A DNA stretch of 64,000 nt from assembly GCF_000383615.1 (NCBI RefSeq), contig NZ_KB911588.1, positions 62,001-126,000 of the forward strand. The letters are read 5' to 3'. Below the pieces are notes generated by a model that saw only the letters and a program-made list of their open reading frames with translations, did no database searches and was not told where the DNA came from. Below are positions 7,294-64,000 of the stretch, in pieces. How positions within the stretch are numbered: the stretch's first letter is position 1; each line of letters begins with the position of its first letter. Origin of the DNA: Streptomyces canus 299MFChir4.1 (lineage in GTDB: Bacteria > Actinomycetota > Actinomycetes > Streptomycetales > Streptomycetaceae). The position numbers and the translations under genes are program-made.

Positions 7294-7364
7294 GCGGGTG
7301 TAGTTTAATGGTAGAACATCAGCTTCCCAAGCTGAGAGCGCGAGTTCGATTCTCGTCACCCGCT
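7294..7364 (+). tRNA. tRNA-Gly (anticodon CCC)
   Basis: A full cloverleaf can be folded: acceptor GCGGGTG/CACCCGC, D arm with GGTAGA, anticodon stem TCAGC/GCTGA with loop TTCCCAA (anticodon CCC at 7326-7328), T arm GCGAG-TTCGATT-CTCGT, discriminator T. CCA is not encoded. Confidence 0.95.
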
Positions 7365-50750: not shown

Positions 50751-51120
50751 TGTTCGTCGTGATCACGGAGTTCCGGTCCCTCCACCGCGCTTCCGTGCAC
50801 CGGCGCCGATGTCGGCGGCACAACGCCCGTCACCGGAGGTCACAGGGGTGCGGCGGGTCTGCGCGGGAGGTAGGCCACGTCCAGGGGATCGCAATATCTG
50901 TGCCCACGAAATGAGAAATAGCTCCGGGGCACGGCCCGTATTCCCCGAACACCGACCGGGTCGAAAATCATCGTCCGCACAGGGCCGATCGCACCGTGCT
51001 ACTGTCGATCTCAGTTGCAGGTGTGGTTGCCAGAAGGTTTATTTCCGACGGGTTAATCAGCACGGCGACACGGAATTCACGCAGGGTGAATTCCGAAACC
51101 GCCTCCGAAGGAGATATGAC
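50751..51120 (+). other. Upstream region of cspA (first block)
   Basis: 370 bp with no gene. The last 150 bp, less GC-rich than the surroundings, probably include the cspA promoter and a long 5' UTR as is usual for cold-shock genes. GAAGGAG lies 8 nt before the cspA ATG. I could not fix the promoter. Confidence 0.4.
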
Positions 51121-51324
51121 ATGGCTACTGGCACCGTGAAGTGGTTCAACTCGGAAAAGGGCTTCGGCTTCATCGAGCAGGACGGCGGCGGCGCCGACGT
51201 CTTCGCCCACTACTCGAACATCGCCGCGCAGGGCTTCCGTGAGCTGCTCGAAGGCCAGAAGGTGTCCTTCGACATCGCGCAGGGCCAGAAGGGCCCGACG
51301 GCCGAGAACATCGTTCCCGCCTGA
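51121..51324 (+). CDS. Cold-shock protein (CspA family), first copy
   Basis: 67 residues, full cold-shock domain with RNP1 KGFGFIEQ and RNP2 DVFAHYS. These small OB-fold proteins bind single-stranded RNA and act as RNA chaperones. It is followed by a terminator hairpin and a DEAD-box gene, the same order as at 62736. The two CspA copies differ at about 8 positions. Confidence 0.96.
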
Positions 51325-51351: not shown

Positions 51352-51387
51352 AGCTGGGGCCCGCACCTAGGGGTGCGGGCCCCAGCT
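51352..51387 (+). terminator. Hairpin between cspA and the DEAD-box gene
   Basis: Perfect 16-bp stem (51352-51367 with 51372-51387), loop TAGG, no T run. It could end most cspA transcripts and let some read through to the helicase gene. A shorter homologous hairpin sits after the second cspA. Confidence 0.85.
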
Positions 51388-51464
51388 CGCGCATTTCAGG
51401 GCGCATCTCCCATCGCCTTCGGTTCGTTCTCGCGATTCTCTGCGCCGCTCATCGGCTGCGTGAA

Positions 51465-51491
51465 TTCCTTGATACGCGCCGCATCAAGGAA
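51465..51491 (+). promoter_or_regulatory. RNA hairpin that covers the DEAD-box Shine-Dalgarno, copy 1
   Basis: TTCCTTGAT (51465-51473) pairs perfectly with ATCAAGGAA (51483-51491), 9-nt loop. The right arm contains most of the ribosome site AAGGAAGG (51486-51493) of the gene starting at 51500. The equivalent hairpin before the second DEAD-box gene keeps 8 pairs with one compensated change. Confidence 0.7.
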
Positions 51492-51499
51492 GGTTTCGC

Positions 51500-52972
51500 A
51501 TGAATCGCACACGCTCGAACTCCACCCGTGGCCGCTCCGGCGGTCCGAACCGTGGTTCCGGTTCCAGGACGCACGGAAACCGGCAGACCGTACAGGGCGA
51601 GTTCGCACCGCCCAGGACGATCACGCCCGCGCTGCCCGCGGTCGAGTCGTTCGCCGATCTCGCCATGCCCGCCCAGCTGTTGGCCACGCTGGGCCACGAA
51701 GGCGTGACCGCGCCGTTCCCGATCCAGGCGGCCACGCTGCCGAACTCGCTGGCCGGCCGTGACGTCCTCGGCCGCGGCCGCACCGGCTCGGGCAAGACCC
51801 TGGCCTTCGGCCTCGCCGCACTGGCGCGTACGGCGGGACGCCGGGCCGAGCCGCGGCAGCCGCTCGCTCTCGTCCTGGTCCCCACCCGTGAGCTCGCGCA
51901 GCAGGTCACCGACGCGCTCACCCCCTACGCCCGCTCCGTGAACCTGCGGCTGGCCACCGTCGTCGGCGGTATGTCCATCGGCAGGCAGGCCGGTGCGCTG
52001 CGCGCCGGGGCCGAGATGGTCGTCGCGACGCCCGGGCGGCTCAAGGACCTCATCGACCGGGGCGACTGCCGGCTGAACGAGGTCGCCATCACGGTCCTCG
52101 ACGAGGCCGACCAGATGGCCGACATGGGCTTCATGCCGCAGGTCACCGCACTGCTCGACCAGGTGCGTCCGGGCGGGCAGCGGATGCTGTTCTCCGCCAC
52201 CCTGGACCGCAACGTCGACCGGCTGGTGCGGAGCTACCTGCACGACCCCGTCGTCCACTCGGTCGACCCCTCCGCGGGAGCGGTCACCACGATGGAGCAC
52301 CACGTCCTCCACGTGCACGACACGGACAAGAACCGGACCACCACCGAGATCGCCGCCCGCGACGGCCGGGTGATCATGTTCCTGGACACCAAGCACGCGG
52401 TGGACCGGCTGACCAAGCACCTGCTGAGCAGCGGTGTCCGTGCCGCGGCCCTGCACGGCGGCAAGTCCCAGCCGCAGCGCACGCGCACCCTCGCCCAGTT
52501 CAAAACCGGGCACGTGACCGTGCTGGTGGCGACCAACGTCGCGGCCCGCGGCATCCACGTCGACAACCTCGACCTGGTCGTCAACGTGGACCCGCCCACC
52601 GACCACAAGGACTACCTGCACCGCGGCGGTCGTACGGCCCGCGCCGGTGAGTCCGGCAGCGTCGTCACCCTGGTGACCCCCGGCCAGCGTCGTGGCATGA
52701 ACCGGCTGATGATCTCGGCGGGCATCACCCCTCACGTCGCCCAGGTGCGTTCGGGCGAGGCGGAGCTGAGCCGCATCACCGGGGCCCAGGCCCCTTCCGG
52801 TATCCCGGTCGTCATCACCTCGCCGCCGGCGGAACGCCCCCGCGGCGCCTCCTCCTCGTCCTCGTCCCGGGGCCGTCGTGGGCGCCGGGGCCAGGCGGGA
52901 CAGGGGCGCACCGCGGGCGCCGCGCCCCGTCGCGGTGCGCCGCGGCGGACCGGCTTCGGTTCCGCCGCCTAG
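51500..52972 (+). CDS. DEAD-box RNA helicase
   Basis: 490 residues. Basic N-terminal tail, Q motif (FPIQAATLP), motif I GRTGSGKT, PTRELA, TPGRL, DEAD in VLDEADQ, SAT (LFSATL), and domain-2 motifs TNVAARGIH and HRGGRTARAG. The tail from about 445 is Ser/Arg/Gly-rich and likely RNA-binding. Such helicases unwind RNA and are often cold-induced. The ribosome site is buried in a predicted hairpin. The position after cspA suggests a shared stress response. Confidence 0.94.
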   Translation: MNRTRSNSTRGRSGGPNRGSGSRTHGNRQTVQGEFAPPRTITPALPAVESFADLAMPAQLLATLGHEGVTAPFPIQAATLPNSLAGRDVLGRGRTGSGKTLAFGLAALARTAGRRAEPRQPLALVLVPTRELAQQVTDALTPYARSVNLRLATVVGGMSIGRQAGALRAGAEMVVATPGRLKDLIDRGDCRLNEVAITVLDEADQMADMGFMPQVTALLDQVRPGGQRMLFSATLDRNVDRLVRSYLHDPVVHSVDPSAGAVTTMEHHVLHVHDTDKNRTTTEIAARDGRVIMFLDTKHAVDRLTKHLLSSGVRAAALHGGKSQPQRTRTLAQFKTGHVTVLVATNVAARGIHVDNLDLVVNVDPPTDHKDYLHRGGRTARAGESGSVVTLVTPGQRRGMNRLMISAGITPHVAQVRSGEAELSRITGAQAPSGIPVVITSPPAERPRGASSSSSSRGRRGRRGQAGQGRTAGAAPRRGAPRRTGFGSAA

Positions 52973-62735: not shown

Positions 62736-62939
62736 ATGGCATCTGGCACCGTGAAGTGGTTCAACGCGGAAAAGGGCTTCGGCTTCATCGAGCAGGACGG
62801 CGGCGGCGCCGACGTGTTCGCGCACTACTCGAACATCGCCACCTCCGGCTTCCGCGAGCTTCAGGAAGGCCAGAAGGTTACCTTCGACGTCACGCAGGGC
62901 CAGAAGGGCCCGCAGGCCGAGAACATCGTTCCCGCCTGA
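62736..62939 (+). CDS. Cold-shock protein (CspA family), second copy
   Basis: 67 residues: [23 protein letters not shown]2 DVFAHYS, ending AENIVPA. RNA-binding OB fold. It is nearly the same as the product at 51121 and is also followed by a hairpin and a DEAD-box gene. Promoter sequences differ between the copies, so their timing may differ. Confidence 0.96.
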
Positions 62940-62990: not shown

Positions 62991-63100
62991 TGTCCCATTG
63001 CCCCGAAGAATCAGATGGTCCTCAGGAATCTGATTTTCTTCTTTTTTCCCCGGCTCTTTCTTGCGAATTCTCGCGCGGTTCAATCGCGCCTTCGGAGGAA

Positions 63101-63131
63101 TTCCTCGACACGTGCCGCACGCATCGAGGAA
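63101..63131 (+). promoter_or_regulatory. RNA hairpin that covers the DEAD-box Shine-Dalgarno, copy 2
   Basis: TTCCTCGA (63101-63108) pairs perfectly with TCGAGGAA (63124-63131), 15-nt loop. The right arm overlaps the ribosome site GAGGAAGGG (63127-63135 region) of the gene starting at 63145. Relative to copy 1, one T-A pair has become C-G, keeping the pairing. A palindrome GAGGAATTCCTC (63095-63106) overlaps the left arm and could compete. Confidence 0.7.
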
Positions 63132-63144
63132 GGGTTCCCCTCCC

Positions 63145-64000
63145 ATGAACCGCACCCGCCGTACCGGGAACAACGGGAACAGCGCGTCCCACCTGCGCTC
63201 CCGGGGCGCGAGCCACCAGCGCTCCCGCCCGGCCGCCGCTCCCCGCGGCGAGTTCACCCTCCCCACCACCGTCACCGAGGCCCTGCCCGCGGTGGAGGCG
63301 TTCGCCGACCTCGACCTGCCCGAGCGTCTGCAGGCCGCGCTCCTGGCCGAGGGTGTGACCACGCCCTTCCCCATCCAGGCGGCCACCCTGCCGAACTCCC
63401 TGGCCGGCCGTGACGTCCTCGGCCGTGGCCGCACCGGCTCGGGCAAGACGCTCGCCTTCGGTCTGCCGCTGCTGGCCCGCCTCGACGGACAGCGCGCCGA
63501 GCCCCGGCACCCGCTCGCCCTGGTCCTGGTCCCGACCCGCGAACTGGCCCAGCAGGTCACCGACGCGCTCACCCCCTACGCGCGGGCGCTGCGCCTGCGC
63601 GCGGCCACCGTCGTCGGCGGCATGTCGATCGGCCGCCAGGCGTCCGCGCTGCGGGCCGGCGCCGAGGTCCTCGTGGCGACGCCCGGCCGGCTCAAGGACC
63701 TCATCGAGCGCGGCGACTGCAGCCTGAGCCAGGTGACGATGACCGTCCTGGACGAGGCCGACCAGATGACCGACATGGGCTTCATGCCCCAGGTCACGGC
63801 CCTGCTCGACCAGGTGCGCCCCGACGGCCAGCGGATGCTGTTCTCCGCCACGCTCGACCGCAACATCGACCGGCTGGTGCGCAACTACCTGCACGACCCG
63901 GTGGTGCACTCGGTCGACCCGTCCGCGGGCACCGTCACCACCATGGACCACCACCTGCTGCACGTGCGGGACGACGACAAGCACGCCACCGCCACCGAGA
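63145..64000 (+). CDS. DEAD-box RNA helicase, second copy, cut by window end
   Basis: 285 codons are in the window. Q motif FPIQAATLP, GRTGSGKT, PTRELA, TPGRL, VLDEADQ and LFSATL are all present, so helicase domain 1 is complete and domain 2 lies beyond. The product is very close to the helicase at 51500 except in the N-terminal tail. The ribosome site is inside a predicted hairpin. Confidence 0.94.
   Translation, partial: MNRTRRTGNNGNSASHLRSRGASHQRSRPAAAPRGEFTLPTTVTEALPAVEAFADLDLPERLQAALLAEGVTTPFPIQAATLPNSLAGRDVLGRGRTGSGKTLAFGLPLLARLDGQRAEPRHPLALVLVPTRELAQQVTDALTPYARALRLRAATVVGGMSIGRQASALRAGAEVLVATPGRLKDLIERGDCSLSQVTMTVLDEADQMTDMGFMPQVTALLDQVRPDGQRMLFSATLDRNIDRLVRNYLHDPVVHSVDPSAGTVTTMDHHLLHVRDDDKHATATE

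Follow-up and report, generated by a model that had tools for sequence, protein, structure and literature searches.

A conserved hairpin covering the Shine-Dalgarno sequence of csp-linked DEAD-box helicase genes in Streptomyces: a probable translational control element

Autogenous translational leaders are a familiar feature of genes for RNA-binding proteins, the ribosomal-protein leaders being an example. The category is described in the main text of PMC11109978. The element analysed here resembles these leaders in that it is a structured leader of the gene of an RNA-binding protein, covers the Shine-Dalgarno (SD) sequence and carries a conserved loop. It differs in that the gene encodes a DEAD-box helicase, in its small size (one hairpin, 48 model positions) and in having a candidate ligand only. 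In the main text of PMC11109978 the word 'helicase' appears once, in the definition of the category, and 'DEAD' and 'cold shock' are absent; its supplements may hold unnamed candidates. S. avermitilis is among the genomes screened there. The Streptomyces motifs dauA, livJ and pntA, as presented in that main text, are likewise leader structures that include the SD, but they precede other genes and were proposed as riboswitch candidates. CrhR of Synechocystis is a DEAD-box helicase whose effect on its own expression is linked to temperature, although it belongs to a cyanobacterium and the effects are on transcript and protein stability (PMC3485376); the words 'Shine-Dalgarno' and 'untranslated' are absent from the accessible part of that text. 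The cspA thermoregulator of Rfam (RF01766) shares the cold-shock gene context. It has no match at gathering score at the element and none in the window, by which we mean the whole 64,000-nucleotide stretch of Streptomyces canus 299MFChir4.1 DNA analysed (assembly size 10.5 Mb). Weak matches in two of the five loci searched (35.6 and 28.1 bits against a gathering score of 78) lie at 1179–1612 of L037 and 605–1036 of L043, clear of the hairpins at 1953–2000 and 1280–1327. In an Rfam search of the window the hairpin has no gathering-level match to any family; the only match at that level is a tRNA gene at 7294–7364. The accessible parts of PMC8079986 and PMC12096830 contain nothing on the hairpin, nor does that of the latter on an RNase III site. 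The titles and abstract openings that we surveyed, a scope outside which subscription papers and supplements fall, do not name the element, and in the same material we found no account of what determines the amount of these RNA helicases in actinobacteria.

The window contains two DEAD-box helicase genes, each located 3' of its own gene for a 67-residue cold-shock-domain protein, and the features of both sites are on the forward strand. At site 1, csp1 (51121–51324; Pfam CSD, 1.4e-29) is followed by a GC-rich, terminator-like hairpin of 14 bp noted by eye (51354–51385). It has no T run, and a terminator scan found no T-tailed site at this position. The helicase 1 gene (51500–52972; 490 residues; Pfam DEAD, 2.3e-43, and Helicase_C, 1.3e-27) is preceded by the inverted repeat TTCCTTGAT/ATCAAGGAA at 51465–51491, which forms 9 bp in sequence and in the predicted fold. 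Its 5' arm (the anti-SD, 51465–51473) and its 3' arm (51483–51491) enclose a 9-nucleotide apical loop, ACGCGCCGC (51474–51482). The 3' arm includes AAGGAA of the SD AAGGAAGG (51486–51493), so that six of the eight SD bases are paired and the last GG is bulged; six nucleotides separate the end of the SD from the ATG at 51500. A weaker outer stem, seen in folds and counts, has its 5' side at 51458–51463 and its partner bases within 51494–51499. Site 2 repeats this layout. There, csp2 (62736–62939; Pfam CSD, 5.1e-31) precedes an inverted repeat of 8 bp (63101–63108 and 63124–63131, again in sequence and fold) around a 15-nucleotide loop, CACGTGCCGCACGCA, with CGTGCC (63109–63123). The 3' arm carries SD bases and, as at site 1, ends inside AAGGAAGG. 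The ATG of helicase 2 is at 63145; its reading frame (63145–64000) extends past the window end, and over query residues 1–470 its product shares 75% identity with helicase 1. An earlier note on this DNA had stated that a hairpin buries the SD of the helicase at 51500 and that the pairing is kept at the paralogous site, and both repeats are confirmed exactly as it gave them. The compensated C-G versus T-A pair that it saw between the two sites is also present. The csp1 leader has a hairpin of its own, GGAATTCAC-N5-GTGAATTCC, at 51072–51094, upstream of the csp SD.

To the counterpart of this locus in S. coelicolor we presumably can assign SCO3731–SCO3732. The names are those used in PMC6009599 and PMC10148868, and SCO3732 is given as a DEAD/DEAH helicase in the accessible part of the latter.

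The distribution of the hairpin was followed with covariance models. A contig scan of relatives kept the best 80 of 561, 78 of them titled Streptomyces and two 'Actinobacteria bacterium'. Together with both window sites and the third and fourth helicases of the source genome these make 84 loci, of which model R1 matches 82, failing only with the third and fourth helicases. R1 was built from 42 leaders that are among the 82 matched hairpins, so that 40 matches lie outside training. A csp gene is recognized upstream in 80 of the 82 loci, and one of the two misses has just 322 bases upstream. In the source genome only the two window leaders score well; a weak fifth match, L099, was rejected, with no csp matched and no helicase visible by eye in the frames. 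With one genome per species, 134 of 150 genomes of Streptomyces matched the model (E <= 0.01, one to four matches each) in a search whose stricter filters lose weak matches. A first class-wide draw gave a match in 32 of 296 genomes, namely 25 of the 28 listed Streptomyces and seven others, of which three have csp and helicase and four are false. A second gave 46 of 394, and the 12 outside the genus comprise five true and seven false matches. With a second model, R2, 18 of 150 genomes of family f17 were matched (17 of 22 matches precede a DEAD-box gene), as were 14 of 101 of family f37 (all 14 precede a DEAD-box gene and have csp upstream); 132 and 87 genomes of these families, respectively, have no match. 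A word search found the helicase in 69 of the 76 loci examined. The other seven are the four false non-genus matches, one terminator-like match, one locus at a contig end (L116, not judged) and one missed helicase (L172) that tblastn recovers with 58% over 86 residues. By their context we rejected as false the model matches L154, L155, L162, L168, L169, L185, L190, L192, L193, L197 and L213–L218. The predicted hairpin, usually placed between a csp gene and a DEAD-box gene, is thus conserved in Streptomyces and, beyond this genus, in some members of two further families of actinobacteria.

Information content over the 82 leaders peaks at the hairpin, where ten-base means are 1.77, 1.46 and 1.76, compared with 0.26–1.38 upstream and 1.60 and 1.39 at the start codon. 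Within it the apical CGYGCC reaches roughly the conservation of the SD. YGYGCC, most commonly in the form CGYGCC, is present in the apical loop of 71 of 82 hairpins, and the G, G, C and C of GYGCC are invariant in 73 leaders. The earlier note was right that the loops of the two window sites differ in length (9 and 15 nucleotides), but its description of them as different in sequence misleads: they share ACGYGCCG, and few other stretches of the element are conserved so strongly. Loop length varies by insertions behind the CGYGCC motif, with up to 11 bases inserted between the arms (L175). In three loci of a diverged f17 helicase (L194–L196), where no csp was recognized, the stem is rewritten to CCGAG/CUCGG and ACGUGCC is retained. 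This retention is hard to explain by hiding of the SD alone, and the conservation of the loop suggests that a factor recognizes it.

A second conserved block, CGGYTCGTKCTTGYGA, lies upstream. Best-match placement puts it 15–92 nucleotides 5' of the hairpin in three families; a best match always exists, and not all of these placements are real. Leader comparison places blocks of this type upstream of both window hairpins, at 51420–51438 and, with three mismatches to the typed pattern, at 63051–63069, and at variable distance also in f17, f37 and another helicase group. A simple promoter scan gave no site at either block in the window. Pairing of the loop with an upstream GCGC, and the block as an alternative anti-SD or a boxA, are ideas obtained by eye. 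A stretch of 16S helix 18, which we take to read UACGUGCC, raises rRNA mimicry as an idea only. The conservation of CGYGCC at about the level of the SD and the shared upstream block are the main points that the earlier note missed.

In the 73 leaders from the source genome and the scan of its best 80 relatives, 94.7% of the cells of the nine stem pairs are paired; over the 82 hairpins of three families the figure is 87.4%. Deviations in the five core pairs of these 82 hairpins are G·U in 22 cells and C·A in two, while at the stem ends they are G·U in 13 cells and C·A in 34; the cells come from related sequences and are not independent events. The predominance of G·U in the core favours RNA pairing, and the difference between core and ends indicates a preserved core of five pairs, CCUYG/CRAGG, with free stem ends. 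The pair that differs between the window sites follows the same pattern. It is UA in 22, CG in 21, UG in seven and CA in none of 50 diverse hairpins. On a tree of 96 helicase proteins it is CG in 42, TA in 28, TG in 15 and CA in none of 85 rows, 11 rows that were unclassified or odd having been set aside. There it undergoes 13 state changes, with seven changes counted on each side, and reconstructed events keep the pairing in 11 cases, break it in two and are unpaired throughout in one. Both breaks are C·C in rows that apparently carry a one-base deletion. A test of independent pairs on this tree gives four supported pairs, too few for significance.

Covariation, for which the earlier note had proposed a test with a covariance model, is moderate. 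The observed score is reached by none of 500 shuffles of the 82 hairpins and by no shuffle of the 50 diverse hairpins. Within Streptomyces it is not clearly beyond shuffles, of which 110 of 500 reach the score of the nine-pair stem and 23 of 500 that of a 17-pair structure. In the wide alignment a slide by +3 scores 0.148 versus the observed 0.163. This proximity and the lack of clear covariation in Streptomyces mean that much of the signal may reflect shared descent. The selection for structure proposed earlier gains support from the wide conservation and from a pair that switches repeatedly via G·U, no C·A having been seen there. As judged from alignments and folds, an anti-SD arm located upstream pairs with the SD, and the core of the stem is kept through G·U and compensated changes.

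We consider the hairpin, with a probability of roughly 60%, to be a conserved element that acts in cis to control the translation of csp-linked DEAD-box helicase mRNAs and whose loop is read in trans. Counting against this are the covariation results within Streptomyces and for the +3 slide, the loci and the many f17 and f37 genomes in which the hairpin is missing, and the shuffle control of SD accessibility at the window sites, given below. Pfam matches in the window and helicase words elsewhere assign the downstream genes to an RNA-binding or RNA-remodelling protein, and the leader is possibly autogenous, the encoded protein binding its own leader and altering its translation.

Folding alone is no proof of the hairpin, and the case for it rests on conservation. 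The isolated inner hairpins have predicted energies of -10.6 kcal/mol (site 1) and -15.2 kcal/mol (site 2), and none of 200 shuffles is as good. With the outer stem included, six (site 1) and one (site 2) of 200 shuffles are as good. Inverted repeats of 9 bp with loops of 3–15 are common in the window, with 57 overlapping matches. Folding both leaders, as the earlier note advised, sets site 2 apart from shuffles (z -2.58) and not site 1, whose whole leader folds no better than they do (z -0.12). Using ViennaRNA, the energy of the site 1 hairpin is -17.7, -12.9, -10.6, -9.4 and -6.3 kcal/mol at 10, 28, 37, 42 and 55 °C, and it is predicted to be closed throughout 10 to 65 °C. In 98 leaders the median unpaired probability of six SD bases is 0.153 at 37 °C, 0.131 at 28 °C and 0.116 at 10 °C. 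At 28 °C it lies below 0.2 in 83 of them, and a few are open, with 0.78 as the largest value. When the upstream sequence is shuffled, 14 of 30 leaders have no more than six of 60 shuffles that are as closed, and the window sites have 13 and 24 of 60. Cooling would only close the hairpin further, and the temperature switch that had been suggested for it is not supported.

The strongest rival is a switch opened by the helicase: the hairpin would hold back translation until the helicase unwinds it, a positive feedback that perhaps operates in the cold. Opening of its own mRNA by the helicase, as the earlier note also proposed, is possible. In its favour, the gene encodes a DEAD-box RNA helicase, and the predicted hairpin is stable, more so at 10 °C, which implies that something may have to open it. 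Such a switch needs no conserved loop, yet the loop rivals the SD in conservation and is left unexplained. DEAD-box proteins, moreover, usually lack sequence-specific targets. On balance we regard this reading as rather doubtful, though worth keeping in view.

Somewhat less probable still is a passive constraint, with a strong SD and a mildly inhibitory inherited leader but no regulator, the effect being a fixed low translation rate or protection of the mRNA 5' end. The surrounding leader is highly conserved, covariation is weak inside Streptomyces and the hairpin is lost in some lineages, all of which agree with it; a loop motif that stays conserved in three families despite changes in stem letters and loop length does not. 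The losses emerge from 14 genomes without a model match, six of them Streptomyces, that were searched by protein. Orthologous loci that do not keep the complementarity, against which the earlier note had staked its proposal, exist in part: four of the six Streptomyces genomes have csp-helicase loci without the canonical hairpin (L229, L230, L232 and L234). The other two have a sub-threshold hairpin (L231) and a long helicase only (L239). In the other families of this search there are different SD-adjacent hairpins or none. The hairpin is common but dispensable. One Streptomyces locus, L219 (1490–1525), speaks for the control element instead. Downstream of its csp gene the block and the stem are intact, but the loop has decayed and the SD is mutated, and no helicase was detected in the 3 kb by tblastn; this single case is suggestive of a relic.

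A DNA palindrome that acts as a transcription-factor operator and overlaps the SD by chance is improbable. The dyad is near-perfect in DNA and a conserved block lies upstream, but one arm falls on the SD and the arms tolerate the long insertion of L175. An operator calls for symmetric half-sites and no preference for G·U over C·A, and the 22 to two ratio in the core is a difference that is relevant to RNA and not to DNA. Slightly less probable still is a plain RNA thermometer that melts in heat and frees the SD: the SD is paired in the predicted closed form, and the accessible part of PMC6009599 reports heat-shock translational induction of six S. coelicolor csp genes including SCO3731, but that concerns csp genes and not the helicase, SD accessibility is almost flat from 10 to 37 °C, and the predicted stability, with the hairpin still folded at 42–65 °C, argues against melting in the physiological range, which the folding model does not lead us to expect.

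Other helicase leaders carry hairpins as well. A third helicase paralogue (2840–2890 of L003, minus strand; L242) carries a leader hairpin, CCUUCC...GGAAGG, that has diverged but still covers the SD, and no csp was seen upstream in these two loci. In the long Streptomyces DEAD-box helicases (L004, L246, L248 and L249) a leader hairpin abuts the SD and contains GGCGCGTGCCGA.

Among 20 protein-selected leaders YGYGCC is found in 12, versus about three expected from shuffles; three of an original 23 lack an assigned start, some starts are doubtful, orthologues are not independent and at least two of the 12 look like chance upstream matches. It is a long shot that separate groups of actinobacterial DEAD-box helicases share a CGYGCC code with one common reader and hence cross-regulate each other. 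Such a code would sit on SD-covering or SD-abutting hairpins with wholly different stems, some with GGYTCGTNCTTG upstream, an arrangement that we hold to be unlikely. That the common reader is a helicase, a Csp or another RNA-binding protein is equally speculative. Leads are L194–L196/L235, L236/L238, L240 and L004/L246/L248/L249.

For the preferred reading, a translational control element whose loop is read in trans, the closed hairpin would keep ribosomes off, and the loop would be recognized by an RNA-binding factor that acts in trans and either holds the hairpin closed or opens it. The most economical guess for this factor is the helicase or the cold-shock protein encoded next to it. The level of RNA-remodelling activity would then feed back on helicase synthesis. 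Negative feedback, in which an abundant factor clamps the hairpin, is our tentative first choice, at clearly less than even odds.

With its near-invariant loop, its lack of an Rfam match and its presence in 134 of the 150 Streptomyces genomes, the hairpin is a short, testable RNA target. Binder and mutant tests on it would reveal any feedback of RNA-remodelling enzymes on the translation of their own mRNAs, and the hairpin would also serve as a compact translational control part for Streptomyces.
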